NCBI GenBank assembly: GCA_963920765.1
Contig: OY987247.1
Span: 3,720,001-3,784,000, forward strand
Reading direction: 5' to 3'
Origin: Ulota crispa
Lineage: Eukaryota; Streptophyta; Bryopsida; Orthotrichales; Orthotrichaceae
Length of the DNA: 64,000 nucleotides
The position numbers and the translations under genes were made by a program. Within the stretch, counting starts at the first letter, position 1. Each line of letters begins with the position of its first letter. Below the pieces are notes generated by a model. That model was given only the letters and a program-made list of their open reading frames with translations, was not told where the DNA came from and searched no databases. This document shows positions 5,496-61,870 of the stretch, piece by piece.

Positions 5496-5733
5496 TTAAC
5501 TCCTAAAAATCCCATGGGGTAACAAACAAGTTGCTTAACAATTGGCATTTGCTACCAGCAAGAAGATTTGATTTGGAAATTAAATAGCTCACTATTATTG
5601 CATTGATTTAGATATTCCAACTTTTTTGGTGATTTCAAATGCAAGAAATGTATGAATCCATTCCAAACACAAGAAACATATCTTATACTGTACTAGCCAC
5701 AAAGGCATTTTTACATATTTAGCAGTTGATTAA
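5496..5733. mobile_element. TTAA-flanked element, short (~240 bp) form, degraded
   Basis: Its interior matches the elements at 6343-6589 and, inverted, at 53600-53839: GGCATTTGCTACCAGCAAGAAG, then GATTTGGAAATTAAATAG. TTAA lies at both ends (5496-5499 and 5730-5733). The terminal CCCTAAAGG-like bases have decayed, so this is the oldest-looking of the three short copies. Confidence 0.5.
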
Positions 5734-6342
5734 TACACATTTGCAAAAGAAGATTTACTCAAAAAGATTTCAATAGAACATTGACCCTTCATTTTTTTTG
5801 CGACTAATTTCTAAATAATGTATAAGTTGGGTGCATTGGATTCCTCTTCTTCCTCCAACAAGAACATACAAAATTTCAGCCCCAGTCTATGGGCTCAAAG
5901 GCTAAAAGGCTAAGTAGCAATTGTGGCAGTCCCAACTCCGTGCTACAAGTCTAATTATTTTCTATTTGTCTTGTTCTCTTGGAAAGAACACATTAAGCCA
6001 CTTTGCCATTCGTGCTAGGAAGAAATTGTAAGAGTGGCTTAATTTTTTGGATTTTTTGGTTTTTTTCTCTTTTTTGCAGAAAAGGCCTACTCTTAGAAAT
6101 AGGCCCATTTGTGACAGGCTCTTGTCTGAGACCAGGAGGAGAGGGAAATCAATGAGAGAGAGAGGGGGGCTCCGGGCACCTGCCACAATTAATAGGCCAC
6201 TACTGAACCCACTATAACTGCTTTCACAACGGGTGGAGAGTCTGGAGACTGCAGAGTGCAGAGTGTGCGTGGGCAAGTCAGTCACCCAACTGACAAAATA
6301 AAAAAATTACCCCTACTTTGTATTTGGTCAGATTCATCTCTT
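5734..6342. other. Spacer with purine-rich tract
   Basis: A low-complexity purine/pyrimidine-biased stretch lies at about 6040-6170. The 107-codon minus-strand frame over it (5962-6285) is compositional and not supported as a gene. Confidence 0.45.
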
Positions 6343-6589
6343 TTAACCCTTAAACAACCATAGAGCACACTATATAGACCTCCCTCCGTATAATTGGTAT
6401 TTGTTATTAATAAGAAGTTTTAATTTGGGATATTGAATAGCTCACTAGAATAGCATTGATCTATGTTTCAACTTCTTTGTTGATTGTACATGTAATAAAG
6501 GTGCAAATCTATTCCAAATACAAAAAAAAACACCTCGTATTGTATTGGTCTCAGTGGCAGTGTGGCACACTTAGACACTGAAGGGTTAA
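6343..6589. mobile_element. TTAA-flanked element, short (~240 bp) form
   Basis: The left end is TTAACCCTTAAACAACC and the right end is the complement of TTAACCCTTCAGTGTC. TTAA is exact at both edges (6343-6346, 6586-6589) with no further duplication outside. The interior is homologous to 5496-5733 and inverted 53600-53839. The right end is followed at once by GGTGAA, the start motif of the CACCCATA family. Confidence 0.7.
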
Positions 6590-6998
6590 GGTGAACTTCA
6601 AATGGTTAGGAATTGGAAAACCTACACATATATGATATCATGCTACAAAATTGCTTGTTGTTTCTGGGTTTTATTGTTTAAAAACTAGCATATGGAACTT
6701 CAAAAAGTCCAAACTTGTTCTTTCAAGCATAAGAGCAATCTCAATGGCCGCACAATGTAGGTGCAACAAATTATAAGATGGAGGTGGACAAGGAAACAAG
6801 GGACCCAACGGGAATTATAGTCAACATATTTGATTGAGGTGCATGCCAATCAAAAACCCTCAAGCAATATTTTGTAGCTTGTTGCTGCATTGTCAACTGC
6901 CTAAGTCAACAACACAAATTCCCTATTTGACAAGTATACCATTGGGTCCCTCCTCCCCAAATCCTACACTTGAAACACAAGATCCCAAAATTCCAATG
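6590..6998. other. AT-rich spacer between two TTAA-bounded elements
   Basis: No gene or clear repeat arms are seen. It begins GGTGAACTTC next to the TTAA at 6586, so it may contain the remains of a CACCCATA-family end. Confidence 0.4.
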
Positions 6999-7412
6999 TT
7001 AAGGTGGAAGCACCCATAGCCAACAACACCCCATACCCAACCAATAGGGTGCGTTATTTTCAATCTTAGGAGGGATAGGTGCTTTGGAATGCTTTCTTCT
7101 ATCCTTTTTAAGATTGGAACCACTTAAGTCATGATGCGCGTCCCAAAGTGAAATAGAAAGTAATGAGCAGAAAGTTGTGCGGCTATTATTAGAATTGCAT
7201 GAATCTAGAGGTTGACAATGGGTTCGAAGCACTTTTTGACTCCCAAAATTCATAAGAATTTCAGTTTTGCAAATAAAATTATGAAAAACTTACAATCCCA
7301 ATATTTCTCATATTCTTACACCATTACACGGGAAAAGTATTTGTCGCCTCAAACTCTTTGTAGTTTGTTGCAAAATTGATTAAGTTATTGGGTATGGGTG
7401 CTTCCACCTTAA
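6999..7412. mobile_element. CACCCATA-family non-autonomous element, copy 2
   Basis: This is the clearest copy. Left TTAAGGTGGAAGCACCCATA and right complement TATGGGTGCTTCCACCTTAA are an almost perfect 20-bp inverted repeat, with TTAA at each extreme (6999-7002, 7409-7412). The base run after the right TTAA is CCCTTAAAG, the terminal motif of the other TTAA family. No protein is encoded; the short frames inside are shadows. Confidence 0.75.
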
Positions 7413-7799: not shown

Positions 7800-9474
7800 G
7801 GCGTGTGCAGTACTGCAAGCACCTACAGACTGCACCACTGTTACCCTGCAACTCTGCCGAGATCGTCAGAACTTGATCAGGTCAACTAACGGAAACCAAC
7901 AAGGGGGTAAAACAAAAAGAACCAACTTAAAGAAAACTAACCAAAAAAATGAACCTACAAAAACTACAAAAAAGCAGAACCTGGAACTGAGAGGACTGAA
8001 GGGACATAGCTCAGACCCTCATCTCTCTGACGGCGCACTCACTACTTACCACCCTGTCGTGCAACAGCTGTCTGTGGTAACTTAGCCACTCGACATGGCT
8101 GCTGCTGCACCAGCAACGCTCTTGCAAAATCGCAATAACTAAGCTTCAGATCTCCTCCATCTCCTCCTAATGCTCCTCCTGCTCCTCCTCCTCCTCCTCC
8201 TCCAACGCTCACTTGCAAACGGTCTCCTCTCTCATCCCAGAGATCTGAACAAAATCACCACCATAGTGCAGCAATTGTACCGATTCATGCAAATTCTAGC
8301 AACACTCTCTTTGTCTTGGATTAGAAACCATTGATGTTGATGTCGTTTTGATCTCTCAAGCTTTTCAAGCAGATCATCTGAAGTGGATGCGCAAGCAATT
8401 GGACAATTTGGTTACAGTTGTGTTGTAAAGGTACTGTTTTTGCTGTTGTTACTGTTGTTGCTGCAGTTGCTGTTATTGTTGTTGTTGAAGTTGAAGGGTT
8501 TAGTTGAGGGAAGCCGGGATTGTCTTTACCGACTGGACTGCATTGGATGTAGTGCTGGAATTTAGACGTGTTAGAGGCGGGCGATGGTAATAAGAAACCA
8601 GCACTGGAAAAGGTTTAGGATTTGCTTGGGAGAGCACATTGATTGATTACTGGAGGCTTAGTAATGGCTGGGCTGTATGTTTGTGTACAGGTAGTTGTGG
8701 AGAGATATGCAACAGAATCGAGGGAAGGGCAAACTCTTAACTGCAGGACTACATCTCCCAAACTCCCTTCGTTTTTAGCTTAATTCGATCGGCAGCGTTT
8801 TCATCAACTTAGCAAGAGGTATGCTTGTTTGTATGAGTTTAATTGTCTGCTCCGGAGTTGAACCTGCTTGAACCCAACCCTGATTTTTGTTGTCCATGAC
8901 CACGTAACTGTACGAGACGGAGACCTAGAAGATGTGGTCACTTGTACGCAACAATTGTCAAGGAAACTTGTACTGCAAGTAACAGCAGTTGGTCCTTCTT
9001 GAGCGTAATTGATTCTTCGAGATTTCCAGAGGGACAAATGTACTGAGAGAACTCAATCAGTCCTTGACGAACCTTTGTGTTGCACGACACCCAAAAACAA
9101 ACTCTGTCTCGAAATTCGAACGATGCCAGTCATAATCGGCATTGCTAGTTTCATCCTTACAATACTTAAGCATTGCGGTGATGTTGCATTAAATTTTTGC
9201 GCCATAGATGTTCTAATGCTGGGATTTGGCTTGTCTATGGATATATTCGTAAATGTGCAGAGGCGAGCCATGGATTTCTCAGCAAGGCGATTTATAGCTG
9301 GTGGACGTTGGCTACATTGCTTTAGTCTTCAAACTTGAGCAACCCAGCTTTAGCTTCCAAAAGCCAAAGTTTTACGTGCAAGCTTTTGCTCCAATGCCGT
9401 GACAGAGGACTACTTGCACTCGTTAGACTCAACAAATCCTTGAGCTTCGGAAAAAAATTGATAGAAAAAAAACC
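7800..9474 (+). promoter_or_regulatory. Upstream region of the LRR gene, promoter and 5' leader
   Basis: Base composition changes here from AT-rich spacer to mixed, GC-richer DNA that runs into the LRR start codon, so promoter and 5' leader probably lie inside. A CTC/CTT-rich tract at about 8152-8210 resembles pyrimidine-rich tracts of plant core promoters and leaders. A GTTGTT/CTGTTG tract follows at about 8430-8485. Just before the start the sequence is A-rich and ends AACCATGGC, a good plant translation context. No TATA box or start site can be assigned with confidence. A 109-codon plus frame at 9009-9338 has no recognisable domain and may be leader sequence. Confidence 0.4.
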
Positions 9475-11303
9475 ATGGCAAGCAATGTGCAGAGCGTGGT
9501 GATAGGAACGCTCACTGGGTTGTTCTGCTTTTGCTTTTGCTTCGTCGTCGTCGTCCCGGTGGGAGCGCAACTGTTGCACCCGGTGGACATGCTCGCCCTA
9601 CGCGCCATCAAGAGCAACATGCACGATTTACCAGGAGGGACTTTTTTCACAACGTGGATATTCGCACTTCGAATCAATCCGTGCATGACATTCACAGGGA
9701 TCCAATGTGTGAAAATCGGCAGTTTCAACAGAGTCCTCTCTCTCCAACTCGGCATTAATTCATCACCCGGTTTGGGAGGGAGTTTGCCTGCAGCACTTGG
9801 TGACCTGGCATACTTGCAAAGCCTCGTCATCACCCCAGGGGAGATTCAAGGCGCCATTCCTGAAACCCTTGGCAACCTGCAAAACCTTCGAATATTCTCC
9901 GTGAGTTTGAATTCTTTATCTGGCTGGATCCCGGCCTCGTTGGGAGGGTTACCGTTGTTGAGAGAGTTGATAGTATCGGATAATCGACTCTCCGGTCCCG
10001 TTCCTGGATTTCGTCAACAGAGTAGTTCGTCGTTGCTGCACTTGGATGTACGGAATAACGACCTGTCGGGCCCGTTCCCGGAGCTGCCCTCGTCGGTGAC
10101 GTATCTGTCGGTGACGAAGAACCGACTGTTTGGGTCGGTGGTGGTTGGGTTGGAAGGGATGACGGGGTTGTCGTATCTGGATCTTAGTCATAACGAGTTT
10201 TCAGGGAGAGTGCCTAGTTTTGTGTTCGAGTATGGTTTGTCGTTTCTGTTGCTGAATAATAATCAGTTCCGTGGGGCCGTGAGTGTTCCGAGTTATGTTA
10301 CTATTCCTGTTGTGGACTTGAGCCATAACCATCTGCAAGGGATCATCTCGCCTTACTTGGCTGGGACCCAGAGCTTGTTCCTGAACAACAACCTGTTCGT
10401 AGGCACTGTGCCACAGGTCTGTAATCTCCACATTCCATTGCTCATTCTAAGCAAAAAGAATATCATGTTACGTATATTGGAAAAACCGGAGGGACCATTT
10501 TGTTGTACTCCACCTTACTCTTACATACATACAATAATGGAAAAATTTCATGGATACCCTTGAAGACGTCTGCAATATTTTCATGGATACCCCTGATTTT
10601 TCAGAAATTTCACAAATATCCTTAGGACCAAAAAATTTAGGCGTTTGTTTGTTTTGTTGTGCATGCCACTTCCCTTTCGTGCACAAAGAGAGAAAAGGAA
10701 GTGACATGCACACATGCCTAAAAATTTTGATCCAAGGGTGTTTGTGACATTTCTGAAAAAGCAAAGCAGGGGTATCCATGAAATTTTCCTTACTATAATT
10801 GTAAGGCATGTAGCTATAGCTCAAAGTTGTAATTATTTGGAATTCTTAGAGGAAAATTACTGAGACTCTACTATTGTACAAGAAAGTGCACGCTTGTTTT
10901 TCTTTTTGTAATATGCAAAATTGTATATACATACTGACAGAAACAGTGAAAGTCCCAGAATGTATGTACTGTTTTTTTCCCAATTCACCTAATCTGGTGT
11001 TCAAATCTTTGAGAACTTTGCGTGCTGACGAGTGTTTTGTGTGTTGTGGCATGTGCGTGCGTGCAGGATTTTGCAAGTAAAATGCAGGAGGCCTCGATGC
11101 AATCGTTGTACTTGCAGCATAATTATCTCACTAATTCTGGAGCGCTTGGAGACGCATCGTTACCACCGAGTGTGTCGGTTTGTTTGCAGTACAATTGCAT
11201 GGTGCCTCCACGGCAGTCTCTATGTCCAACGAATGTAAACATGCCTGCTTCCCGACCTGAGTACCAGTGCCAGCAAGCCAGCAATGGCTCCCCCGGAGAC
11301 TAA
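9475..11303 (+). CDS. Secreted LRR family protein, two exons (9475-10416, 11067-11303)
   Basis: Exon 1 (314 codons) ends CCACAG before GTCTGT and exon 2 (78 codons) begins after GTGCAG, a phase-0 GT-AG splice giving 392 aa. Residues 1-31 are a hydrophobic signal peptide ending VGA. Residues 34-78 form the N-terminal LRR cap (LHPVDMLALRAIK... with Cys70 and Cys78). About nine to ten LRRs follow (85-337). The C-terminal cap reads VCLQYNCMVPP with Cys353, 358, 367 and 382. There is no membrane segment or kinase, so it is probably exported to the cell wall space. From memory the layout and the motifs DLPG..FF..W, LYLQHN and LCLQYNCMVPP match the Arabidopsis At1g03440/At4g03010-type LRR proteins (about 395 aa). 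Those have no settled biochemical role; a part in wall or defence signalling is only inference. One oddity is that the first cap has two extra residues before Cys70. I see no stops or frame slips, so it looks functional. Confidence 0.9.
10417..11066 (+). other. Intron of the LRR gene (650 bp)
   Basis: Donor CAG/GTCTGT and acceptor GTGCAG/GAT keep the frame (phase 0) and restore the conserved ...TVPQ-DFASK... order. Reading through the donor gives a stop soon after the conserved LRRs end and loses the cysteine cap, which supports splicing. A complete Mutator-like MITE occupies 10539-10790. Confidence 0.85.
10539..10790. mobile_element. Mutator-like MITE in LRR intron
   Basis: The left end GGAAAAATTTCATGGATACC and the right end (complement of GGTATCCATGAAATTTTCC) are an inverted repeat of about 21 bp. 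Flanks TACAATAAT (10530-10538) and TACTATAAT (10791-10799) match at 8 of 9 positions. A 9-bp target duplication is typical of Mutator-like elements. Inner inverted segments (GCATGCCACTTCC and GGAAGTGACATGC) let the transcript fold into a long hairpin. A second, disrupted copy is at 22826-25325. Confidence 0.8.
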
Positions 11304-11311
11304 CCTTCTTC

Positions 11312-12677: not shown

Positions 12678-12680
12678 TAA

Positions 12681-15075: not shown

Positions 15076-17159
15076 AAACTCCTCTCTATTCCACATTGCT
15101 GCTGTGCACTGGCCCTTCTCTGCCGTCACGATCTTGAAAGTCAATCCTGCTCACGAGCTCTGGAATCCTTGTCGTAGCATGGATGCGATGTGTAGGATAT
15201 GTGTGCCCCGCCATCCAAAAAGAAAGACTCTCATCTCCATCATTCAAATCTACCATCCATTCCTGGGAAATGGTGTGAGAATGGGTATCCACAATATCCA
15301 TGAAGAGCTGAAAATGAAGAGCTGAAAATGAATAGTACTAAAAGAAGTAGCACTATCACAATACTTCTCATAGATTTCAGCTTGGCAAACTTTAACCGCC
15401 GCTAGGAAATCGGAAACAAACACAGAACCTCTTCGAGCAAATTTTATCAAACTCTGAATGCTCTCCAAAAGGGGCAGCAAACATGGCAAAGCAAGAACTT
15501 GGGTAGATATGTCGCACAATAAAAGGAGGTTCTTTCGAGCAAAACTTTCCTAGTTTGAGTCCTCTAAAAACTTGACAATGAGGGTTTTATATTTAGCCAT
15601 GATTCTCTTCAAGGGCACCAAGAGAGATATCCAGTGGGTTGAAACCTTGTTCAAGATGCGTAGACCCTCCGTCTCCACAACCTTGGCCAATTTGGAGGAC
15701 TCTCAATGCCTTTTTGGGGAGTTCAAGAAATAAGAGTTAAAAACCTTGCACAAGGTCTCCAACTTCCGAACAATTGGCAAGTTTGAAAGAGCCTCAATCG
15801 CGAGAGTTGTTCAATGGGCCATGTTGTGCATAGCGATGGTGTAAGGAGCAGGTTTGGGTTTGGATTTCAGCTCAGTTGTCACGCCTGTCCTAGAACTTAC
15901 CTTGAAATACTACCGTTCCATCTGCCCAAAAAAGACAAGTTTCTCTCCAATTTCTTGAGCGGTTAATCCTCCATGCCAAGCAAGCATACCATAGATGAGC
16001 TCATAAGTGTTGATAGCGTTGGCATCCTCTACAACTTGGCATATAGCGGTCGTCATGGATTGCCTTGCATAATTTGAACAAGTATAAACATGAACACTTA
16101 ACCATTGCTGGTTATCATCTGATGTAACTTCATCAACAGAAAGGGCAAGGAACCTTGCGTTTTTAACTTCAGCTTTCAGCCTCTCAGAGCAAATTGCCGC
16201 CATCACATTCACAAAGTCCCAACCGACACTTTCGCTCCAGTGCTTCTTCGGGAGTTCTGGAACGTTCAACTGCACAAGGAGGTCTTTAGCAACGCTGTAA
16301 TCAGATATAGGGCGGCCGTGCTGTAGAACGTTGAAGACGACCTTCATCTGAATAGTCCTCCTCCTTCGCTCCTTCACCTGCCCCAACCCCTCAACAACCC
16401 CTTGCAACACAGATTCAATCCCTCCCCTGACAAAGAAGAGTCTCTTGTTCTTTATGTGCTGAGTGGAGCCCAAGTAGTAGTGCTCCCCCTTCTTAATCCC
16501 CTTGATATTGTAGAGGGCCTTTCTCCTGCCAGCATGTTTCTAAAGTGAATCTATTTTCGCAGCAAGCAACTTCTGGCGCCCCTCAACTTTGGTACAGATT
16601 TTACAACAAACTTGGTTGAGAGTACCGTTAGATCCAACAACTGGCTCAGCCCACAAAAACTTAGAAGCCCAACTATCCTGGACGTGCCTCTGTAGGTCAT
16701 AATTTTTTTTACGTTTTTTGGCCAGGCCGTGTGACATAGCAGCAGTGGCAGAATCCAAAATGACAGCCTCAGGCTCCCCATAATCAATGCCCTTGCCTTT
16801 AACATTGACAGTAAAACATAGAACAACCTCAGGCTCTCTCAAACTACTACCCTCAATAGCCGTGGACACTCTACTGACTACAACGCAATCAGACTTGGAG
16901 CTGACGGTAACAGCAACTGCCGTTTTAGACGATGACAAGGAAGACGCAAATCTCGCTAAACCAACATCATTGTTTCTGTCACTACTCTCAACACGTCCAC
17001 CGTAAAGGTATTTATGAAGAGGCGCCTGAATCGTGCCAGCAATCTTTGGTGACTTCATCGCAAGAATTGAATGAGAGAATAGGCAAAATCGAAAACAACA
17101 AACACCAACAAGAGTACAGTAGCAAGATGAGTGAAGGTTGAGAGAACTGCTTTTTAAGT

Positions 17160-17905
17160 ACAGCAATGCAATGAACCGCCTCCCCTCTCGTAATACACCT
17201 CCAAAGCAGACTCTAGCCGCCTCCGAGCCACTGGCCCTCTGCCCCTCAACTCAAACCGCCTCCGCAGCTCCGTCCTCGAAAACCTTTGCTGTCAATGCCA
17301 ATCGTAAAGGAAGCCTAGAAACCTAAAATTCCAGCGTACATTGCCCTCAGCACAGCCAATCCCTACTCCGCCAATTTGCAAAAAGCAGCAGATTTCACCA
17401 GATTAGAATTCTCAAAGAATCCACTTGTTGCTGTAACAGCAAATTGCTGCGCGCCTTCACGCCAATTTCAGATTTCCGGCCACATTCCTCACAACTCACA
17501 CTAGCATTAACATGAATCGTAAAGGCGCTTACAAAATTCTTAACTTAGTTCACTTGGCAAGAATCTCGTTGCAACTGAGAACTGCAAGCTGCGGGGAAAT
17601 TGCAAAATCACAAGTACGCAACAAACAACAGCTCCTCTGCAACCCTAAACCCTAGGATGAGCAATAAGTCAGGCTCCCGGAGCACCTGAGGTTGCGCCAC
17701 CTGGCGAGGCGATGGCGAGGGACATCATGAACTGGCGCGAAAGGAAGTTCTGCGCTCGGCGGCGACCCAACCTGTCGGGTTGATCCAACACCTGGGTGGA
17801 ATCCGGTTCTTGCGAAACCAGCCCCAGAAACCAGATTTTTGCCCCGTTATTGATTCGCCAGGGGGTGCATGCGGGCAGATACAGGCGACAATTTGCCCAC
17901 AAAAA
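17160..17905. other. GC-rich island next to the hAT 5' end
   Basis: About 740 bp of clearly GC-richer sequence than its surroundings. A telo-box-like AACCCTAAACCCTA at about 17641-17654 (plus strand) is typical of plant promoters and leaders. It is followed by a short frame starting ATGGCGAGGGAC at about 17711 that ends after 24 codons. This may be the 5' end of the hAT gene with its promoter, or a captured host-gene fragment. I recognise no protein here; frames in both strands are under 80 codons. Confidence 0.4.
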
Positions 17906-17924
17906 TTACACTGGGACCAAGTGT

Positions 17925-18000: not shown

Positions 18001-20916
18001 TTATCAGTCATGTGTTTCAAAACGCTCAAAACTACCATTTCTAAGTATTTAATTCCAAGACCAAGTTTTTTCTATTGTACATAAATCTAACCGCAAGATT
18101 TTTGCATAAGATGCATACAAGAAGGCATGACAGAAAATTGTGAGGTTTGATTGTAACAATTGAGAGATATGAACATTTGAAATTACTATAAAAGTTTTTC
18201 CCAAAATTTTATTTCATGTTGTGGACATTTTTGTGTGAAATGAGTGCTTAAGGGTTTTGTTCAACATGTTGTGAACCATGTTAGGCATATCTCCACAAGT
18301 TTTCATGGATAACAAAGACATGAAGCACACCCTACATGGGCCTTTGTTGCAAGCATGTGCTTGATATTCACACTAAATCAAAGTATTTTGCAAACCAGTT
18401 TCTCAAAAGACATTTTTGAAAATATAAAATCCAAGCTATAGATTGTAAGATTTTGGTTTTCTTAGCAATCAAAAAACATACATTGAAAATCAACCAAATC
18501 CTTAGTAGCTATTGCAATTCAAACGTTGATGTAATTATCCTATACAATAATGTTGTTATCTAGTACACTCTTACTTTGGATGTATTCCAATGAAGGGTCA
18601 CGCCTTTATTGGTTGCCCATGGGAGAAGTTTATGAAAAATGGCATGCCCAACCTACCCCTCTCACCAAAAATCTTCTAAAATTTCCCATAATTTTTGTAT
18701 AATTTGTAAACCCAATCTTTATGAAAATTGTATTTTTGTGTAGTCCTTAAAAACCTTATAACAAAAAAAACTTAAAAAATTGGCCAAACATCCCAATTTT
18801 ATAAGCTTGTCCAAAATCCATTATGTTCCTTGTAGCCACGCTTTAGTCATTTATGGGTTAAGGGCAAAAAGGAGTTCAAAGACAACCATACATACTTTAT
18901 ACAAAAAATCTGATTGGACTTAATTTGAAAGCTAAATCTAGTAAAAGGGTCAACCTGAACCTTGAGTAAAGTCTCACCTTTTTGACGCCAAAACTTACAA
19001 AAAATATTGCCATATAAGCAATTAAGCACCAAGGACATAGTGTGAAGCACCAAGTTCCAACTCTTGGCTTTACACCAATTAGATTCTCAACTTTCAATGG
19101 GACATGGCACGTAGAACATAGTATCAACCACCCTTTAGCGTGAGCTAAGAAAATTACTTTATGCTTTGTTTTTTCATCAGGCACGTGACCAAAAGCCACT
19201 TGCAATTGACTTTGCCATCACGATGTTGGACTTTGGAGAAGGTTCATGACTTCATGCCTAAAAATAGAATCAAATTATCAAGCGTGGTTGTTCCATTTGG
19301 TATCATTGGGTGCTATAGCAATAAAACTCTCAAGCCTTATTGCATAAGATTTGAAACACCCATTCTCCTTTCATTGTGGAGATATCAATTAAAGACCATC
19401 AATTCGATTGGGGGAGGTGCTAGATTTTTTGGACACCTTGTACCTAAAATCTCAACACATACAAATTCATGGTAGAGCAACCACTATAAATTTTCTTCTA
19501 GTAATATTGGCTTTTTTCATTTGGCCTTATCTTGAATGAAGCACTACAAAAATTTGTTATTTTAATTTTATCCTTTTAGTTTTTTTGATGCATGACCTTG
19601 TTTTAAAGCAGGAATGTGCACTTTTCCTTCGTATGGTCGTGCAAAGTGTGACTCCCCTCTTTCCGGCCATTTTAGAGAAGGCAAGGGGAATTTGTTTTGA
19701 AGCATTCATTTTCCGAAGGTGGTGTTGGTTTTTGTATTTGGGAGAAACCCAATGGAGATTTTCTTACGATTGGTGTTTATTTAAAATTAATATCTCATTA
19801 ATTAAAGGAAAATGAGCTTTTCTATTTTTGAACAAAGTATTATTCAAGACTTATTGCTTGTGCATGTTTTACGATTTTAGTACATTGGCATCCAGGACGA
19901 GGAAATCTCTAGGTCTACATGAGCTTATTATAGATGAATTACAGAATTCCTTTTTGAAGACTAAACCACCATATTCATTAATTTGGGAAAAATAGGTGTC
20001 CCACTTTGTACTTCATTTTAAACCCAAAAAGGTATCAGATTTAGTCTGAGCCACTAAGATTTTTTCCCTCACAAATTTCTCCTCTCAGGTGAGGACACGA
20101 GTACAAAAAAAAACATTGAGCTTGGTTTTAGGAGGCCTCTTAAAACTTTTAAATCAACATTGGAAAGTCCCAAAATGTACCATTTTTCCCAAATTAACAG
20201 ATATGATGTTCTAATCAAATGTTGATATAAAACAAGTATACAAGAGTATGACAATGATATCATACTCATGCACTGGATCTGATATTTCACTCACCAGTAT
20301 TAGTTAAAAAAAATTGAAACATATAAATTCAACATTCCTTCTCTATTTGATTTTAGAATGAAAATTATTGATTTCCATAAGATTTTGTTAGCATTGATAT
20401 TCATAATGTTGAGTTCTACTTATAATGGTTTTAAAACATCTTTGTTGTATTTTATCATTGAAGTAATTTTTGAAACATCATTATATGAAATAGAAAAGTT
20501 GGTTTAAAAGTTGAAGTTTTTTTACCTTGTTTAAACTGTAGAATGACTACATAGACTTTCTGAAATATCAATATTGCACAATCGCTAAAAATTTAAAACA
20601 AGAACTTAGTAACATTTGCGTGGACAAAAAGTATAATTTCTATTCGTAAGGGAATTGCTTACATTTGCTAATGGTTCAAAAAATTTATTTTTAATTGTTA
20701 AGAGGCTAAAAACAACAAATTGGAAGAACCATGCTAGATTAGGTTTTTCTATTTGGATTGTGGGTTTTTTTGGAGGCCAATGTGAAAGTAAGAAAGGCAT
20801 TAAAGTATAGAGTAAGGGCCTCATGCAAGGATATTCTCAAGTTTAGGCCACTAGTTATGAGGGTAGAACTAAAGTAACTAGTGGTGCAAACATGAGATAG
20901 TATGTGCATGAGATGC
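18001..20916. other. AT-rich spacer, nothing recognised
   Basis: No repeat family of this window and no known coding motif was recognised. A 102-codon minus frame at 18897-19205 and a 104-codon plus frame at 19161-19475 have no recognised domain, and the stretch could be decayed retroelement sequence. Confidence 0.4.
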
Positions 20917-21849
20917 TTAACCCTAAAGGCTCAAACATTGTTTTTTTGGCAACTTGGCAATTTTGGGAAGCTTACTACACATGGATTTTTCATTTTTTTT
21001 CTTTGAAATTTTCACACATGATGTGCCCAAGGAGTAGTTTTAAGGTCCAATAATTTTTATAGCTTTTGACAGCATGGGTAATAATTTATTGTATGATATG
21101 TAGTTTTCTTTGTTTGTTGGATAGCCTGGGCAGTTCAATTTTTTTTTAAGATTACATTTCAAAAAACAAAAAATTTGAAATTGGTTCTTGAGATCTTTAT
21201 GTACGTGGGGAGCTTTGAATCATTCCATTTTTATCAATGAGATTAAAGTTATGAGGAGTTTTTATTTGTAGGCAATTTTAGATTCTCTACTCTAAAATAA
21301 ACTTTGAAGTCCTTTGTTTTACCCAAATTTCAATAATCTAGAAATAAAATAAACTAGAGGATGTAGATTTTTTATTACAACATCACAAACATTGGGAATG
21401 GAATTTTTCATTTCCAAAATTAAATTCTAAACAACTTAGTGTTTTAAATCATTCTCTACTTCTTTTTACTTACTACTTTTTTCCAATGTATTTTACAATT
21501 TTAAATGATTTGAAACTTTTTGACATGTACCCTACTTAGGTAGAATAAGGAGTCTAGAGAAGCACCATCCACATGGCCTCTTTTCCTTAGGAGTTCACCT
21601 TCTAAAGGGTAGCTGCTCAATTATTCACAAGACCCAAAAAAAAAATTTGAATATTCAAACTGTTATATCTTTCAATCCACAAGGTGGAAAATTCTAAAAA
21701 TCTATCCACATCTTCCAAAACTAGTCTACGACAAGATCCTAGGGCTACATTTGTATATAAACGTTTTTGTTTTTAGATTTGGTGGATGCTCTCAAAATGG
21801 CTATTTTGGAGGTTTTTGGTGAAAACAAAGCTTGGTCTTGTAGGGGTAA
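20917..21849 (+). mobile_element. TTAA-flanked element, long (~0.9 kb) form, copy 1
   Basis: The left end is TTAACCCTAAAGGCTCAAAC. The right end is the complement of TTACCCCTACAAGACCAAG, so TTAA has changed to GTAA there. Subterminal GGCAATTTTGGGAAGCTTAC corresponds to the GGGATTTTGGGCAAGTACCT motif of the other copies. It aligns throughout with 31438-32308 in the same orientation. No transposase is encoded. Confidence 0.7.
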
Positions 21850-21893
21850 ATGCATTCCAAAACCAAACTTTCTCCTTGGTCAACCCCCAATAA

Positions 21894-22823
21894 TTAATCC
21901 CTAAAGGACCATGGCCTTTATTTTGTTAAGAGACACTCAAAACTATCACTTTTATGGCAAAGAGTAAAAACGTTTTAAAATTGGTCTTTTTGCATATCTA
22001 ACCATAGAATCTTGTACTAAACTAGTATAGGAATGTGTTAGACAAAACTCAAGAACTTCAAACGCATAGATTGGAAGATATCTGCATTTAAAAAGCAAGA
22101 AATAGGTTCTTTGCACCTTGCATGACTAGGTTATTTGACTTTGAACTTTTTCAACTTAAATGTTTTGCTCCAAAGAGTTCAGAACTTTATTTTTTGAAGT
22201 GAAGAGTTGAGTTGGGAACCTTGGGAAAAAAATTAGAACAAAAAATACTTAATATGTATCCTTTGAAAAATATTAGGTAGAAGAAGGTATGACATTGAAC
22301 AAAAATTGAAATTGCTAATAACCCTGCAATGGAATTGAATCACAATAATCCCAATGGTGAGATTGTTCTAGAAAGCAACTTCACCCTCTCCAAGATTTTA
22401 AAAAAAAAAAAAAAAAAAAAAACCTTAAGATTGCATTCAAAAATGAAGTTTATAAGATTTTTTTTCAAAAAGATGCTTGAATTGCCCAAAAAACAAGATT
22501 GTCCATCACTTTCTCATAACTAGTCCAAATGGAATGAATCAAAGCTTCAGATGTAGATAAAAATGTAATCTATGAAAAAATATTTGAAAAATATATTTCG
22601 AGTTTTTGTAAAAATATTGCTTCTTAGACTCCCCAAATCTGTGCTTATTTGGGCATAACTTTTGCTCCCTGGCATTGATTAGAATAAAAATTGGATTCCC
22701 CAAAAGCTAATGTGTTTTCCTATCTTCAAAAAGTTTTAAAAAAACAAGACAAAAATTGAGGCCATAGGTACTTGCCCAAAATCCCATTTGTCACCCGTTG
22801 GGACAATGGTCTTTTAGGGTTAA
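21894..22823 (-). mobile_element. TTAA-flanked element, long form, copy 2 (inverted)
   Basis: TTAATCCCTAAAGGACCATG on the left and the complement of TTAACCCTAAAAGACCATTG on the right, with TTAA exact at both extremes. It is inverted relative to copy 1, which ends only 44 bp away. A run of about 23 A residues lies at 22400-22422. It matches 41797-42705 in the same orientation. Confidence 0.75.
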
Positions 22824-24013
22824 CAGGGAAAGTTTCATGGATACCCGTGAAGTTTGCAATAATTTCATAGAAACCCTTGCTTTTTCAAAAAATTCACAAA
22901 AATCCTCGGGGAGATCACTCCCTTGTAATTTATGGTATACACGTGATGTAAGAGGGTATTTGATAGAGGGCTATTTACCTTAATTGTTGTATTTTAGATG
23001 ACCGTATTATTATATGAAAAGCTACAAGAGGCATATTTCTTGCACCTTATTTTTTTTTGTAAATTCTTTGATTTTCTTTTAAAGTGGGGCTACTTTATTT
23101 ATAAAATTTATTTGTTTAGTTATCTTCACTATTTTTTGTAGAAAAATCTTTCTATTACAAACAAGTATATGATGTATATCATAATACCCAATAATAAGCA
23201 TATAAATTGAAGAGTCACTATAATCTTTCAACTCACAAGTGATGTTATTGTGTTTATTTTTCTATATGATTTTTAACATATCTAATTTGAATTTTTACGG
23301 TTATAATTTTAAAGAATTGACTCAAATTATCAAAACATTGGCTTTTTGTTCAAATTTTAGCAAATTCGTAGAACCTCAAAAAAGGCCTTGCCAAGTGACA
23401 AGGGCCTCCCATTGTACCAAGCCGTAACAAGTGGCTTCCTCATGGGGATTTGGTCATCACATTGTGGCATTGCCTAAAATGGAATATCCTAGTTGTGAGC
23501 ACTAACACCCAACAAAGAGACCCACAACCCTAGATTAAATAATTGTAGTGAATATAAATCTTTGTCATCTACCCTCCATTGTTAACTTTCTCCATTGTAC
23601 TATAAAAAATTTGTGCATCTCCTATTTGTTAAGGCTAATTTATTAACAAAAAATTCTACTACCAATTGTTTTTGCACACCCTATTTTATATGTATTACAA
23701 CATATAGTATTTCATGGATCCTATAGTATCCCTACATATTATATAGTTTTTTTGTTTTTTGAATTAAATGAATCCTATCTTTTAACTAACGTAGTTCCTA
23801 AAAAGTCGACTAGTGATCTCTTCGAGCAAAAATCCTTGGACCAAAATTTTAAAGTGTTTTTTTTTAGTTGTGTATGCCACTTTCCATTTTCCTTGTGCAT
23901 ATACGTAACAAGAAAGAAGTAGTGTGCACACAAAGGGAGAAGGAGAGTGGCATGCACGACAAAAAGAACACTTGAAAATTTTGGTTGAAGGGTATCTGAG
24001 AAATTTTTGAAAA

Positions 24014-24431
24014 GAAGATTGATATGTCTACCACACCCTTTCAATTATTCTACCACACTCCCAAGGTAAATTTTAGATTTCTACCATCAAATAGTTGAAT
24101 ATGAGAATTTGGAATTTAGATTTGGACTTTGAGACCTTGATTTTGTCTAGAACCATAAAAAAAAAGGTTCTAATTGAACAACACCCAATGAAAAAACTTA
24201 CCTTTTTTTATAAACAAAAGTGAAAGTATTACTTTTCCCTTGAGATAAGCTTTTTCATTGGGTGTTGTTCAACTACAACCTTTTTTTATGGTCCTAGACA
24301 AAATCAAGGTCTCTAAGTCCAAATCTTCATTCCAAATTCTCAAATTCAACTATTTGATGGTAGAAGTCTAAAATTTACCTTGGGGGTGTGGTAGAATAAC
24401 TAACAGCTTGTGGTAGACATATCAACCCCCT
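24014..24431. mobile_element. ACACCCAATGAAAAAGCTT-type foldback MITE (family A), copy 1
   Basis: The ends carry GATTGATATGTCTACCACACC and its complement. The element is a near-complete inverted repeat meeting at a short AAACAAAAGTGAAAGTA loop. Flanks TTTGAAAA (24006-24013) and TCTGAAAA (24432-24439) match at 7 of 8 bases, an hAT-like 8-bp duplication. It is inserted in the Mutator-like MITE. Confidence 0.75.
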
Positions 24432-24450
24432 TCTGAAAAAGCAGTAGGGG

Positions 24451-40753: not shown

Positions 40754-41062
40754 CAAATTCGGACTTTGAGACCATGATATTGTCTAGGACCATAAAAAAA
40801 GTTGCAATTCAACAACACCCAATGAAAAAGTTCATATTTTTTTACAAACAAAAGTAAAAGTAACACTTTTATTCCTAACCAAACTTTCTCATTGGGTGTT
40901 GTTGAATTGCAATTTTTTTTGTGGTTCTAGACAAAATCATGGTCTCTAAGTCCAAATCTGAATTCCAAATTCCCAAATTTAGATTTTTGATGGTAGAAAT
41001 CTAAAATTTACTCTAGGATGTGGTACAATAATTGAAAGGGCGTGGTACACATATCAATTTCC
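40754..41062. mobile_element. Family A foldback MITE, copy 3 (left part in gap)
   Basis: The core AACAACACCCAATGAAAAAG and its inverted partner CATTGGGTGTTGTTGAATTG are both present. The right end is CACATATCAATTTCC. It lies in an intron-like part of the decayed minus-strand gene. Confidence 0.7.
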
Positions 41063-41107
41063 TATAAATTTATGTAAAGATACACACAAAAAATACAGAG
41101 GTATATG

Positions 41108-43716: not shown

Positions 43717-44369
43717 TTAACCCCTAAATGGCCAAGGCCTTTTTTGAACTTCTAAGAATTTGCTCTAAACAAAACAAAAAGCTAACATTTTGATAATTTG
43801 TATCAACTATTTTAAAATTGTAACCGTACAAATTCAAACTAAATATGTTAGAAATCATGTAAGAAAAGAAAACACAACAATATCATATATGGATTGAAAG
43901 ATTATAATATTTGATCAAGAGGGTGTTAAAATTGCAAAAATGACTTCAAGTCTTTCCATCATCTTTCCACATATCAAATCTAAAATGTTGATTTCCAAAA
44001 AATATGTAGTTAAAGGACATAACATAAATAACTCCCATCCATTTACAGCTTTTCAAAATCTCTTTTACAATTTTTTAAAATGAATTTCTAGTGTGAATTT
44101 TTCTTCAAGACCTAGTGTGTTTGAGGCTCATTTTCATGGGCTCTCAACACTAAAAAAGTCAAGATTCCAATGGACACCTTTGCAAAAAATCTTGAATAAA
44201 AAATTTACAATTAATAAATTTCAAAATCAGATTTTTGATGCTAAAACAAGACTTCAAAAAGAATAATTTTAAAATAAAAAGTACTAAAAATAACACTTTA
44301 GTTAGGTTTTATTAAACTTCAAAATATTGTCGGCACCAAAATGTGGTGCTTTGAGCATTCATGGGTTGA
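43717..44369 (-). mobile_element. TTAA-flanked element, medium form, copy 3
   Basis: TTAACCCCTAAATGGCCAAG on the left; the right end ends CATGGGTTGA, so TTAA has become TTGA. It is 653 bp and collinear with 27480-28130. It lies between exon-like blocks 44875-44431 and 43671-43551. Confidence 0.7.
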
Positions 44370-46369: not shown

Positions 46370-46784
46370 GGGAATTGATATGTGCACATCGAGGGGTTGA
46401 TATTTGCACATCCCCATGTGAGGTAAATTATAGATTTCTACCATCAAAGATCTGAATTTGAGAAATTTGAATTCAAATTTGGACTTAGAGACCATGGTTT
46501 ACTCTAGAACCAAAAGAAAAAGTTGCAATTGAACAACACGCAATGAAAAAGCTTATCTTTTTTACAAACAAAAGTAAAAGTAACATTTTTTTCCCTAACT
46601 AAACTTTTTCACTAGGTGTTGTTCAATTGCAACCTTTTTTTATGGTTCTAAAGTAAACCATGGTCTCTAAATCCAAATATGAATTCAAAACTCTCAAATT
46701 TAGCTTTATGATGGTAGGAATCTATAATTTACCTCCCAAAGGGTGTGCAAATATCAACCCGTTGGTGTGCACATATCAATTCCC
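46370..46784. mobile_element. Family A foldback MITE, copy 4 (complete)
   Basis: The ends are GGGAATTGATATGTGCACA and its complement. Flanks TGAATGTA (46362-46369) and TTAATGTA (46785-46792) match at 7 of 8 positions, supporting an hAT-like 8-bp duplication. Its two arms meet at TTTTACAAACAAAAGTAAAA. It is the best-preserved complete copy. Confidence 0.8.
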
Positions 46785-46942
46785 TTAATGTAATACTTAA
46801 ATCTTATGTGAATGATATTCCACTATTGTTGATCATGGAAGTAACAAATAAATATGATTGTAAAAAGACACAATGTGAACACCTAACATTTAATTTCACA
46901 TATTATTTGTTGACTATTACAAAATAGGGGCATTAAATAAAA

Positions 46943-47427: not shown

Positions 47428-47436
47428 TAAATAAAA

Positions 47437-51440: not shown

Positions 51441-51458
51441 ATTTGTGAGGGTTGTCTA

Positions 51459-53183: not shown

Positions 53184-53603
53184 AACGTGAAGGCACCCAT
53201 AACCAATCAAATAAGAAATTCAAGACATGATTTGAGGTAGTTCAAGGCAAAGCAAGCATTCTTAGATGTGAATTGATGAAAATGATGGGGATTGCAAAAA
53301 AATTGGTAATTTTACAACTTGAATAAAAAATACTAAGAATTTTACAAAGCAAAAAATGTGTCAGACCTATAGCCAATGTCTACACTCTTCCAATTTTGAT
53401 CATTGAAAAACTATTTTTCCACTCATTGCTTCCTACTTTCTTGCTCACTTATGTGTCATGAATGTATTGTTTCAAACTTTGGAAAAGGAGAAATACACGA
53501 AGTTCAATGAGAAAATGGGAATTTGTTCCAGCCTTGGTTGGTAAAACAACATTGTATTGATTGTTGAGGGGGTATTGGTTTGTGATAAGTGGCTTTACCT
53601 TAA
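53184..53603. mobile_element. CACCCATA-family non-autonomous element, copy 4
   Basis: Left GTGAAGGCACCCATAACCAA; the right end is the complement of TTAAGGTAAAGCCACTTATC, more diverged. Its right TTAA (53600-53603) is also the left TTAA of the next element. Confidence 0.55.
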
Positions 53604-53839
53604 CCCTTAAAGGACCAAGGAGCCCTTTGCGGCCAATACAATATTTAGTATTTTCTTGTATTTGGAATACATCCACACCTTTACTAAATTTGAGATCAAC
53701 AAAGAAGTCAGAATATAAATCAATGCGGTTCTAGTGAGCTAGTCAAGATCCCAAATTAAAACTTTTTATTGGTAGCAAATGCCTCTTATATGGCAGCGTA
53801 TTTACTATGTAATACATAGAGCGGTCCTTTAAGGGTTAA
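53600..53839 (-). mobile_element. TTAA-flanked element, short form (240 bp)
   Basis: TTAACCCTTAAAGGACCAAG on the left and the complement of TTAACCCTTAAAGGACCGCT on the right: 17 terminal bases are identical and TTAA is exact at both edges. This is the best-preserved set of ends in the window. The interior is the inverse of 6343-6589. Confidence 0.85.
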
Positions 53840-54661: not shown

Positions 54662-54895
54662 AATTGATAAGTACACACCCAAGGTTTGATATATGCACAC
54701 CATGGCGGGGTAACTTTTGAATATTTACCATCAGTAAGTTGAATTTGAAAAACTTGAATTCAAATTTGATAAAGAGACCTCAATTAAGCCTAGAACCACA
54801 AAGGTGATTACAACTAAACAACACCCACTATAACATCTAATTTTTTTTGATAAACCAGAGTAAAAGTGATACTTTATTCCTAGTTTGGTGGCATT
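54662..54895. mobile_element. Family A MITE, truncated left half
   Basis: It starts AATTGATAAGTACACACCCA, continues through TACCATCAGTAAGTTGAATT and AACAACACCC as in the other family A copies, then stops after the loop region. The right arm is missing. Confidence 0.6.
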
Positions 54896-56830: not shown

Positions 56831-57158
56831 TTTTGGAGAGGTAAAAGTTGATGCGGATTGCGGAGTTTGTGCAATCAGATAAAAAGCCACGGTACTACTA
56901 CTTTTAGTTGGATTTAAAACACGTACTAAGCTATTGTGTTAAAAAAGTGGGATCCGAGTCAAATTTTATGGTTCAGTATGTGTGCTATGAGTGAGTAGCG
57001 CAGCTGGTGAATACAGTACTGCAAGAGCTAGGGCAAGGGCCATACCAGAGCCGCGCCGCAAGTGTTCCAGAAGATGCTGCTCCAAAAGTGGTATAGGTCA
57101 AGCATTTGTATACTACCGTGATTGACAAGCTGGGAAGCATGAGGTGTTTAGATTTGGC

Positions 57159-58905
57159 GGTGTCTTGATAGAGATCTCTCTACCATATAGATACTTGTTA
57201 TTTATTTATGTTTGTCTTGATTTCAATAAATCAATAATTGTGGCAAAAAAGGTAGTTGTGGTGAAGACCACGGTTTGGTGACAGCGCAGCGGCCACATAT
57301 TCCAATGCACTGCGCCGTCTTATTACATGCACAGCTCAGGGAAGTAGGTAGCGGGTTAACTGAGTCAATTTTTTATCTCACTAGCTGCCAAGCCGTGAGC
57401 CGCCATCACCACTCGACGAGTCCGATGAGATTCGAACCCGGACCGACGGGTGGCCAGAAACAATTGCTTCTCCAGCCAACCAAATTTACAACTTGACAAC
57501 TGAAGACAAACGTTTGATGATATTATATGCCTGCAAGAGTACGAGGCCATTTTATGGTGGTGTTTATTTTGTAATTTAATCATTTTTATATGTTTATCTA
57601 GATGTTTTGGAAGACTCATACATTTTGCTTTTGTTTGAATAAAAAATACTAAGGATTTAGAAGTGAATAGAAAAGGTGTGAAAGGAAAAAAGATTTTACA
57701 TCTATGGTTGAATTAAAATAGAGAGGGGCATAGACTGATGTGCTCCACTTCCTTACTTTAGATAGGGTTGAAATTAAGGAGGAAAAATTCCTTAGTTGTT
57801 GGAAGTTAGTGTATGAGTGTTGGTATGAAGAAGGAAGAAATTTCAAAACTTTGATGTCAGAGAATTTTTTGTGTATACATGATTTTGAATTAAAATTTGG
57901 AGGAGTTGTTTTTTGTGTGATAAATTTTTCAAAATGAGTTTGCAAATTTGATTTGGAATTGTGATGCAAAAGTTATGAGTGTTTGAATTTTGGAGTCAAT
58001 AAGCAAAATTATGAAGAAAGGCTGAGATTTTGACAAGCCATAGCTTATGATTTGTATATCATTTTGCCAATAAGATTTAAAAGAAGTGTTCATCTTAGTT
58101 TTGGATTTCTAAAAAGTCCTTAAACTTGAGATTTGAAGCTTGGAGGAGAAAGTTATGGAGGTGTGAAGAATTGGAGGTGACTGCTCTTTTGTTATGAAAA
58201 AGCCAAAACTTTGAAGAACTACAACTTTTGAATAGTATAAAATTTTCTTTTCAAAATTTTAGAAGTGATATTTCGTTGTCATAGCTTTCTAAATTGTCTT
58301 TAGATATTTCATTTGAAGTCTTATTGAAGAAGTTATAGTGTGTAGGAGTTGGGGATTTTGGTGCTCTCTAAAAAATTGAGACCTAAAGTTTGATTGATTA
58401 GAATTTTTGAACAAAGTTTTATTTTGAAGTAAAAATTTTACTGATTGTAGCTAGTAGTATTATCTTTTCAAATTGATATTACGTTTCTATAGGTGATGTG
58501 TGGAACAAAAGTTATAGAGGTTTATAGAGGCAATGTTTAGTTTGTAAGGAGGAAGAAGAGCCTATACTTTGAACTCGCATAACTTTTGGACAGTAGCTTA
58601 GATTGAGTTGAAATTTAGAAGGATGTTAGAAGATTAGAAGGGCTTTTTAAAATTTTATTACACTTAGCATTTGAATTTTTGAGCCATTTGTGAAACTAGA
58701 TAGAAGGTTGCAGACTTTCTAGAACTTGTTATTTGTGATTTTCCCTACTGTTTTTATTAAAACATGAAGACTTGAATACATGAAGACTAAAGATCTGAAG
58801 AGTCAAAATCAAGACCGAAGACAATTTTAGTCAGCAACGCACAATTGTAGCAAGACACCCTGCGTGTTTCCAAGGCGCGCTCCTCTCAAATCGATAGCGG
58901 AAAGA
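57159..58905 (+). mobile_element. ~1.74-kb LTR-like dispersed repeat, copy 2
   Basis: It is collinear with 34898-36640. The region about 57340-57490 includes TGAGCCGCCATCA and, on the minus strand, GGTCCGGGTTCGAATCTC, a near-perfect RNA polymerase III B box (GGTTCGANNCC type), better kept here than in copy 1. The end reads AATCGATAGCGGAAA. Likely a solo LTR or LTR fragment; no retroelement genes adjoin it. Confidence 0.5.
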
Positions 58906-60410
58906 TATTTTTTGATATGAAGGAGTTTGTCTAGAAGACAGGGTATTGTATGTTTTTTTTTGTATTTCCAGAGTCAAGTTAGCCATGTCAACAAAGTTGT
59001 TGAATTTTTCCACTCCATAAAAGAGGAGAAATGTAGGCCAGATTTGTAGACTTTTAACACAATTATGAATATGTATGTGAAAGCTAAAGTCAATTGTTGC
59101 GGTTCTCTTCTGGTCATTGGATTTTGGTCTTTATTGTATCATTGGCTTGTTTTGCAGTCTAAAGTAGCACCGGTCTACTCATTCTTCCAATTTTAGATGC
59201 AATTCTTCTCAAATTTCTTCACGTTCTCTATGAATGTAGGGAAATATTAGCGGCTTGTTTTTTTGTTAGCCACTAGAAGTGCGACCTAAACCGGCTTCGA
59301 TTTCAAACCGCAAGCAAAGAAAACCGGTGAGATTTTACTAAAACATCTGAATATAGCAGAGCTCTATACAAATGTAGAAGAATATCCAACACAATGTATG
59401 AGTAAACCGGTTGAATATGGAAAATGCCGGTTTTTTAGCTAGCGAAGTTCCAATAAATTTCTCAGGCAGTGCTCCCCAATGGAAAAAACGTTTTATGGTA
59501 ATTATCGCTTTTTTGCTACACCAAAATTGGTGTGGCTAATTGTTCTATAGTATTTTTTGAAAAAAAGTAAAATATTTAACCAACATTTATACATGGATGT
59601 GGGAATAGGAGCTTGATTTTCAAGGTTCCACTTGATGTCGCTTCACCCTACTAGTGCAATATTCTAATTTCTCACAAAACCATCATAGGATTTAGCTTTG
59701 ATGAAAGGTTGAAAACATCCAAGTTTACATCTGTAAAAAAAAAATAGCCATACTGGCTACTCAACCATTTTTTGGTTAGAAAAAGCTAAGGCCACTTCAT
59801 TCAAAATATTTTCACTGCTCTCCATAGTCCGTTTCAGCCCTAGAGGCAACGTTGCTAGCACCATTTTTCTTTAGGCTTTAAAAAGTCAAAAAGCTACAAA
59901 AATTTAATTTAAGCTTTAAGCCTATACAAAAAATGAAGAAAAAAGAGCATCTTGATGCCAGATGTTTTTCAATGTCCCGACTCTCTAGAAGCCTAATAAG
60001 CATTAGAAAAACAAATATGTTGTTGTTTGTAGCCACTCAATTAGGATCTTAGGCAAAAAACAAAGTAATTTTCACACCGCGTGGAGTCGTATTATTTGAA
60101 AATCAAGCCACCCTTTAGTTTCTTTGAAACAGTATCTCTTTTGTTATAAATCTTTAGGTTTTGTAACCCATGTTTTCAAAAAATTCATTCTTGCAACACC
60201 AATATTTGATTTTAGAAAAATTTGGTCACAATCAACCATCTCAAAACGCAAACACTTGCAGCCTAATTTTGTACTAAAATTTTCTTATGTGGCCATATCT
60301 ACACCACTAAAATTTGCCATATGGCCTGAGAAGCTACTGGTCCAAAACCAAAATAAAAACCCTGGTTGCCAAGTGCCCAGGTGTTGAAGGCAGAGCAGCC
60401 AACCTTCAGC
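58906..60410. other. AT-rich spacer, nothing recognised
   Basis: ACCGG motifs recur near 59290-59440, but no gene or repeat arms are supported. Confidence 0.4.
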
Positions 60411-60414
60411 TAAA

Positions 60415-60590
60415 ATAAACCGGCTCCAAAGGAGGCGGGACTGCTGACGAGGCCCGTCATGCACCCGGGGTTGCGGATCCCTGATGCAGCCTACCACGCC
60501 GCAACGTGCACCATGCAGGAGCCGGTACCACCGAGCTATCTGCCGATTGTCAGACTCTGCAACTCTCAGACACATGTGTATTCTAGAAAT
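60415..60590 (-). repeat. GC-rich tRNA-like (possible SINE) remnant
   Basis: A sharp GC-rich island in AT-rich DNA. On the minus strand it reads GCAGATAGCTCGGTGGTACC, close to a polymerase III A box (TAGCTCRGTGGTAGA). A weak B-box-like GGATCCGCAACCCC follows about 60 nt later. No cloverleaf closes, so it is not an intact tRNA gene. A SINE head is possible, but no tail or target duplication was found. Confidence 0.35.
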
Positions 60591-61259
60591 TCTAACAAAA
60601 TCATTGCACCTCCAAATTGACATCGGATTTTTGATGCTGAACCCTACCTTGACCATGCATGTGGTGCGCAAAAACTAGGGTTCAATTGAATCCGGGCAAA
60701 TCCTACAAACCACGCCTAAGCCTTAGAGCACGAAAAATTTCACACAAAAACATTGGGTCAACCACTGTTTGACCAATATAATCTACTACCTTCAACAGTG
60801 GAATTCTTTTTTTCTGAACCCAATTGCTCCAACTTCAACCCTTCTCCCAATTCCAACGATGAATGTTGCTAGATCTCAACCTAGCCACAACAGCGTGGAT
60901 TGTAACAAGAAAGCCTTCACCGCCCTCCTTCACCCCTTGAAAAACTTTGGGCGCTCAAGGGTTAAGAAATTAATGTGATTTTTAGAATTTGAAATATGTT
61001 TGTGAAAGTTCAATCAAAATATTTTGTTGTTTGTTAACTTATGTTGATCATCACATATGTGTCACTTTATATTAGAATACATGTAATACTAATTCTAAGG
61101 AAAATGTATTCATGAATAGTTCTATGAAGGTTGAGAAACTAAGAATATGACTTACAATATTTTTTAAATGTATATAGTTTAATGAACATATTATTAATTT
61201 CTAAAGGTTGCTAACTATGTTCTTAGTAGAACAGTCTAGAACTCCCATTTCTACTACAA
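60591..61259. other. AT-rich spacer, nothing recognised
   Basis: A lone CGCTCAAGGGTTAA at about 60952-60965 resembles one end of the TTAA-flanked family without a partner. Confidence 0.35.
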
Positions 61260-61870
61260 GTACGAAGTTCAAGAAAAAATAGTCATTTTAGAGACTTGCA
61301 ACATTAGGGTCTTATAGTAAGCTACTTTGAGAAGATGAGAAAAATAGTTTCAAATATTTCCATGGTGTGAATTGCAAGATATGAGCGTTTGAATTGATAA
61401 AAATCCTGAAATTAGCCCAGGGTCACGGTTGTTTGAAAAATTGTTGAACTTGCTGGTGCTTCATTGGATTTGGTCTCTGAAAGGAAAGTTGGTTACATGC
61501 TTGAAAAAATTTCAGATTGTTTTGGTTCATTACAACATAGATTTAGGAAAAAAGTAGTAAGTAGAAAGACAGAGAGAATGATTTAAAATACTAAATAATT
61601 AAGCATATTGTTATGGAATGGAAAAATGCCAATCCCAATGGTTGTGATGTTGAATAATGAATTTACATGGTATGTTTTTTTCCGGAAAGTATCAAAAATT
61701 GAGTTACATAAAGGACTTAAACACTTTATTAGAGTTGAAAATTTGTAACAACCCGCATACTAAAGTTCCTTATATAGTTTTCATTTCATTAATCATGATG
61801 GAATGATTCCAAGCTTTGTAAGTACTATGCATCTAGAAAAACAATTTCAATGTTTTCTTTGAGGAAGTGA
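61260..61870 (-). mobile_element. TTAA-flanked element, long form, partial old copy
   Basis: Its interior follows the inverse of 20917-21849. Examples are AAAGTAGTAAGTAGAAAG then GAGAATGATTTAAAATACTA, CAATCCCAATGGTTGTGATG, AAAGGACTTAAACACTTTAT and GATGGAATGATTCCAAGCTT. The ends could not be found, so it is decayed. Confidence 0.6.

Follow-up and report, generated by a model that had tools for sequence, protein, structure and literature searches.

Short TTAA-inserted elements in a 64-kb window of the moss Ulota crispa are very probably piggyBac MITEs

piggyBac transposons are best known from animals. Their TTAA target is not exclusive to them, as Kolobok and Sola3 elements also use it. In the moss Ulota crispa (genome of 274.8 Mb, 157 contigs) about fifteen short non-coding mobile elements inserted at TTAA were found within one stretch of 64 kb, C6:3720001-3784000 (the window). 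These are almost certainly piggyBac miniature inverted-repeat transposable elements (MITEs), i.e., non-coding elements that arose from piggyBac DNA transposons by deletion or rebuilding and have kept the ends recognised by the transposase. TTAA is their duplicated target, piggyBac genes are present in elements with TTAACCC ends, and coding and short elements have end sequence in common. A moss host also fits the PsaD protein of the genome: below a 698-residue chain with three PsaD-like stretches, its best matches are the Physcomitrium patens chains 8htu_D, 7ksq_D and 6l35_D (297-315 bits), although 9lut_D follows closely at 294 bits.

The elements resemble the piggyBac superfamily (Trichoplusia ni piggyBac; piggyBat) in the TTAA target and its duplication, in ends starting with CCC, and in a PF13843 transposase with three aspartates and perhaps, by eye and in some loci, a cysteine pattern after the catalytic domain. 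Unlike T. ni piggyBac and piggyBat, they have a plant host, the coding elements measure 5.0-6.3 kb in the eight cases read from one end to the other, and a 60% identity cut divides the 18 transposase domains compared into twelve groups (62-84% identity inside a group, 30-57% from one group to another). Among animals, piggyBac MITEs such as mPok of Daphnia and those of corals are, as far as the available text describes them, likewise short, non-coding and tied to piggyBac and TTAA. They differ, within that text, from the moss elements, where a single plant genome holds thousands of ends and several dissimilar interiors. The angiosperm MITEs assigned to PiggyBac (PMC10004981) share the superfamily assignment, but in the moss, unlike in the available description of those, coding partners and empty sites accompany the elements.

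In the parts of the literature available, PiggyBac is among the superfamilies of all groups studied, land plants included (PMC4438587), is listed among plant superfamilies (PMC10794571), is one of seven MITE superfamilies in flowering plants (PMC10004981), is represented by 1,230 fragments in C-fern (PMC6890710) and was isolated from plants according to an abstract (PMC10813416). An earlier sequence-only reading of the window had called TTAA-using superfamilies scarcely described in land plants. In view of these records that statement is correct only in part. No report of piggyBac from a moss was found in the open-licence literature, which is weak evidence of absence, and 'piggybacking' in the available text of one moss paper (PMC10619864) is meant in another sense. 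Relative to the open-licence literature found, the novelty is therefore the abundance and diversity of piggyBac in a moss, as its presence in land plants is already recorded.

The window elements were recovered in two ways. A scan for ends with at most 3 mismatches to TTAACCCYTAAAGGACC, which also returned unpaired places, directly gave those at 6343, 21894, 27480, 30178, 31438, 41797, 43717 and 53600. A profile search of the window with fifteen reference copies as queries added the elements at 5496, 20917 and 25606 and the partial one at 61260 as family members. All twelve related elements with common ends that the sequence-only reading had listed were thus found again, and the profile search yielded three more (about 18018-18861, the fragment 23210-23394 and an older element at about 27472-29042). 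Size forms of 240, 650, 725, 870-935 and 909-930 bases occur in the window. The clusters of hits, merged across gaps of up to 60 bases, span 9,821 of 64,000 bases, compared with about 7.5 kb in the earlier estimate. The elements are as follows, with strands relative to each family's reference copy:

5496-5707, minus: eroded copy of the 240-base family, right edge not found (profile match 5520-5707, E 3e-18)
6343-6589, minus: 240-base family, 247 bases, both edges TTAA (profile search, edge reading)
18018-18861, minus: additional; 893-base family, relatives L045 and L047, left edge eroded (E 4e-81 to L045; coding-ends profile E 5e-23)
20917-21850, plus: 870-940-base family, edges TTAA and TAAA (E 1.5e-105 to 31438; right end, coding-ends profile E 9e-14)
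21894-22823, minus: 925-base family, both edges TTAA (E 4e-172 to the L008 copy; left end, coding-ends profile E 4e-17)
23210-23394, minus: additional; fragment of the 650-base family (profile E 5e-18)
25606-26256, minus: 650-base family (profile search; first 37 bases match the L024 5' end, 32/37)
27480-28130, plus: 650-base family, sitting in a TTAA within an older element's end (empty-site alignment)
27472-29042, plus: additional; the older 917-base-family element interrupted by 27480-28130 (its parts are 27472-27479 and 28127 to about 29042; about 76% identity to the L026 and L038 copies)
30177-30902, plus: 725-base form, an almost full-length inverted repeat, two paralogous empty sites (profile search, joined-flank search)
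31438-32308, plus: 870-base form, two paralogous empty sites (profile search, joined-flank search)
41797-42705, minus: 925-base family, edges CTAA and TTAA (left end, coding-ends profile E 1.4e-12; profile search)
43717-44369, plus: 650-base family, edges TTAA and TTGA (profile search, edge reading)
53600-53839, plus: 240-base family, two exact 17-base ends (end scan; 39 relatives elsewhere at 93-96% identity, 40 of 3,562 candidates scored)
61210-62066, minus: 870-940-base family, partial, edges lost (profile E 4e-41)

The termini read TTAA-CCCY, i.e., they are terminal inverted repeats with a CCY start. TTAA is present at 17 of 20 edges in the ten window elements readable on both sides, and the remaining three edges (CTAA, TTGA, TAAA) are each one base off. 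The earlier statement that TTAA or a single change from it is kept at nearly every edge was borne out, but with ten readable elements instead of eleven. Across all 38 elements examined, TTAA is found at 67 of 76 edges and the other nine are one base off; this count is biased upward because many edges were located by seeking TTAA-like starts. Outside TTAA there is no duplication, which agrees with the lack of matching flanks noted before: the flanks agree over 2, 3, 4 and 5 bases in 3, 2, 1 and 0 of the 38 elements, where mispaired flanks would give 2.19, 0.59, 0.19 and 0.05. Two edges displaced by 1 and 4 bases were included in this test, and the slight excess at 3-4 bases comes from one or two elements.

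Empty sites within the genome were sought with joined flanks, scoring 40 of 303 candidates. On C4 and C11, blocks which are paralogous to the window lack both 30177-30902 and 31438-32308. In the aligned letters, the 31438 site is a single TTAA on both C4 and C11; the 30177 site is a single TTAA on C4 and TTAT on C11. The element at 27480-28130 occupies a TTAA in the end of an older element, and three relatives of this host are uninterrupted there, reading CTTTAAAGACC in L026 and L033 and CTTTAAGGACC in L038 (L numbers denote loci elsewhere in the genome). The empty sequences at these three window elements hold a single TTAA in 6 of 7 cases, the seventh being TTAT. Use of a TTAA target, which had been read from the sequence alone with the suggestion to look for empty sites holding one TTAA, is borne out in this way, and TTAA is supported as the target duplicated on insertion. 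Outside the window, a MITE in L033 occupies the TTAA of a piggyBac 5' end that is uninterrupted in L036 (TTAG in L025), and in L036 one TCAA is common to a MITE and a piggyBac end. Elements nested in or abutting one another's ends were seen in three cases (window 27472-29042; L033 721-1637; L036 7147-8115), as ends such as TTAACCCTTTAAGGACC carry a second TTAA and so a built-in target.

The joined-flank search also returned a filled paralog for 53600 and the left flank only for 41797; 43717 is filled in its paralog. No further empty sites were found for 6343, 20917, 21894, 25606 and 43717 (40 of 3,299 candidates scored). Over the flanks searched, parts of the window are paralogous to C4:23.98 Mb and C11:3.49 Mb at 81-89% and to a second block, C6:1.532-1.556 Mb, at 91-98%. 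Judged by coordinates, 30177 and 53600 are filled in the latter block. As 30177 is filled there and empty on C4 and C11, it was probably inserted between the older and the younger duplication, unless C4 and C11 lost the copy by excision.

The genome contains at least 120 matches to PF13843 (best E 1.3e-73; 116 of 528 candidates scored). None of them lies inside the window, where no transposase had been seen before either. Fourteen control genomes, which may well be prokaryotes, gave no PF13843 match. Twenty transposase loci of about 10 kb each were examined. PF13843 was confirmed on three frames, with L033 at 8e-60, and L033 is similar to the solved transposases 6x67, T. ni piggyBac (E 4e-20), and 9c0f, piggyBat (E 6e-17). 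By eye, 11 of 18 domains have the full set of three aspartates, which presumably correspond to the T. ni catalytic residues; in each of the remaining seven, one or more has been lost or is absent. CxxC repeats past the catalytic domain were seen by eye in L022, L023 and L048 and are not clear in L025, L026, L033 and L038. In 7 of the 20 loci (L021, L022, L024, L025, L026, L039, L040) inverted TTAACCC ends flank the gene at 15-17 of 17 bases, and L029 has such ends around its gene by inspection. The similarity between L039 and L040 begins and stops exactly at the element ends, and that between L021 and L030 starts exactly at 1763. A further stretch, L046 (C10:8789200-8795500), has 5.6 kb between good ends and was rejected as an autonomous copy, since its frames of at least 70 residues contain no transposase by eye. 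Downstream of the transposase frame in L023, positions 5872-6459 consist of 147 perfect copies of ACAT.

The short elements are tied to the coding ones by end sequence. With a profile built from the 3' ends of L048 and L023 alone, four window elements are matched at E 5e-23 to 1.4e-12, namely 18018, 21894, 41797 and the right end of 20917; the reversed window yields no match. When six or seven copies make up the profile, the same four elements are recovered (E 9.5e-25 to 7e-5), again with none in the reversed window, and in the opposite direction a profile made of six MITE ends and excluding L048 detects L048 at 1.4e-75 and L023 at 3.8e-27. L048 terminates in TTAACCCCTAAAGGATT, and over its final 360-520 bases it shares 72-78% identity with members of the 940-base MITE family. 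The proteins of L048 and L023 are 57% identical, and no similarity was found between these loci from the shared end to the gene. Among 1,678 candidates, the L023 3' end recurs in 39 other scored places, 38 of which reach the last three bases of the element. One of them, L045, is 893 bases long and starts with the exact end; the initial 257 bases and roughly the final 562 are common to L046. Whether the L048 end belongs to its gene was tested by a search with L048 bases 700-2000. Two places carry both the near-end and the near-gene parts in the same order (C6:12298132-12299438, which adjoins another transposase match, and C8:2246572-2247851). A whole MITE inserted at the L048 and L023 ends is unlikely because neither L048 nor L023 past base 2400 contains the inner half of the MITE.

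In 25606, 32 of the first 37 bases equal the 5' end of L024, and beyond the 17-base end the alignment scores 30, whereas none of 300 shuffles scored above 23; among 18 end comparisons this was the only one to exceed the shuffles. Apart from the end itself, 31438 and 30177 gave no direct match to a coding element, and their link to coding elements runs via the 940-base family.

Several observations weigh against piggyBac MITEs with TTAA as their target. L023 and L048 are known by their 3' ends only, which agree with the window end at 16 and 15 bases, respectively, out of 17; no 5' end was found for either. A search for long coding relatives with the same ends had been proposed as a check. It gave piggyBac-coding elements with TTAACCC ends, but none of the coding elements read has both ends equal to the window ends. 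Chance pairs without TTAACCC reach 13-16 of 17 bases and the pair in L021 is only the second best, so the TTAACCC motif and the copy comparisons (L039/L040, L021/L030) carry weight. Stops interrupt 14 of 19 transposase domains. The five without stops are two partial domains, one with an intron-like insert, L033, which has lost a catalytic aspartate, and L031, which keeps all three aspartates and begins at profile position 30; among the loci examined, no intact full-length transposase was shown. The alignment at 27480 takes in two bases left of TTAA, with the left host bases matching at 5 of 8. Outside the window, the empty relatives of the L002 site (13 of 28 listed spanning places fetched) read CCAA in 13 of 14 cases and CTAA in one, and those of the L038 site read AAAA and GAAA; the length of the gap at both nevertheless fits a single four-base target.

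The L002 and L038 sites, together with TTAA at so many edges, would suit an element of which TTAA is a fixed part and which duplicates no target, or one whose target is only the TA inside T-TA-A. Given the single TTAA in the empty sequences at 30177, 31438 and 27480 and the TTAA occupied by the MITE in L033, this is extremely improbable. As TTAA duplication is also a trait of Kolobok and Sola3, membership in one of these superfamilies was considered too. It has a next to negligible probability, since Pfam and the sequences of solved structures identify as piggyBac the transposase that was found, with PF13843 as the search model, in elements having the same kind of ends and end sequence in common; of the two superfamilies named earlier from the sequence alone, piggyBac is the one favoured. 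It is also very unlikely that two or more unrelated transposases, having converged on the end, mobilised the short families. The families are indeed unlike in their interiors and in the last bases of the end, and no coding element was matched to the 240-base form. However, the end variants track piggyBac lineages: TTAACCCCTAAATGCCY is shared by L024/L035 and the 650-base copy of L021, and the GGCCC and GGATT ends of L023 and L048 are near the GGACC of the 870-940-base families. If the elements are piggyBac MITEs, larger elements elsewhere in the genome would supply the transposase in trans, which would cut the MITE ends and insert them at TTAA, leaving TTAA duplicated. We infer that piggyBac transposase moved the MITEs in this manner, by cut-and-paste without a footprint.

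The elements are short, non-coding and dispersed, with inverted ends and a high copy number, as expected for MITEs. The suggested search of the genome for copies gave 9,236 exact 17-base ends (4,623 + 4,613), with 0 for the reversed control. This corresponds to 2.15 per 64 kb, and the window, which has two, is therefore ordinary by exact-end count. If it is also typical in total content, the short elements may make up about 10-15% of the genome, as extrapolated from one window. For the 240-base form, the scored candidates are the element itself and its 39 relatives, 36 of which align across all 240 bases, and nine of the ten largest contigs are represented. Since these relatives are the top-scoring ones out of a large number, their identity understates the age of the entire family. 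The coding elements L039 and L040 are 89-93% identical.

It is rather likely that mosses, or this lineage, hold an old and diverse piggyBac radiation, with at least a dozen coding groups and many MITE families, which takes up about a tenth of the genome or more. If true, piggyBac would be a main DNA transposon in a land plant, raising the question of whether inheritance or transfer led to such abundance of a superfamily with few descriptions from land plants. The moth piggyBac serves as a footprint-free tool in rice and in 2017 was named as untested in the moss Physcomitrium patens, according to the available text of PMC5505980. Native piggyBac ends and transposase relatives in a moss bear on such use and may yield plant-adapted transposases.

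Other repeats are also present in the window. Long direct repeat pieces at 34897-36613 and 57158-58878 lie about 22.26 kb apart with 82-89% identity and are either a duplication or the ends of a repeat. Another, dispersed repeat reaches about 430 bases and is almost an inverted repeat of itself; it lies at 24003-24440, 33291-33605, 40754-41063, 46421-46786 and 54706-54876, and also in L046 (2046-2463). About 200 N at around 40550-40770 mark an assembly gap. On the minus strand, two frames at 15910-17250 are hAT-like by eye, with no Pfam match at E 0.01. On the plus strand, 9427-10563 is a frame for a leucine-rich-repeat protein (LRR_8 and LRRNT_2).

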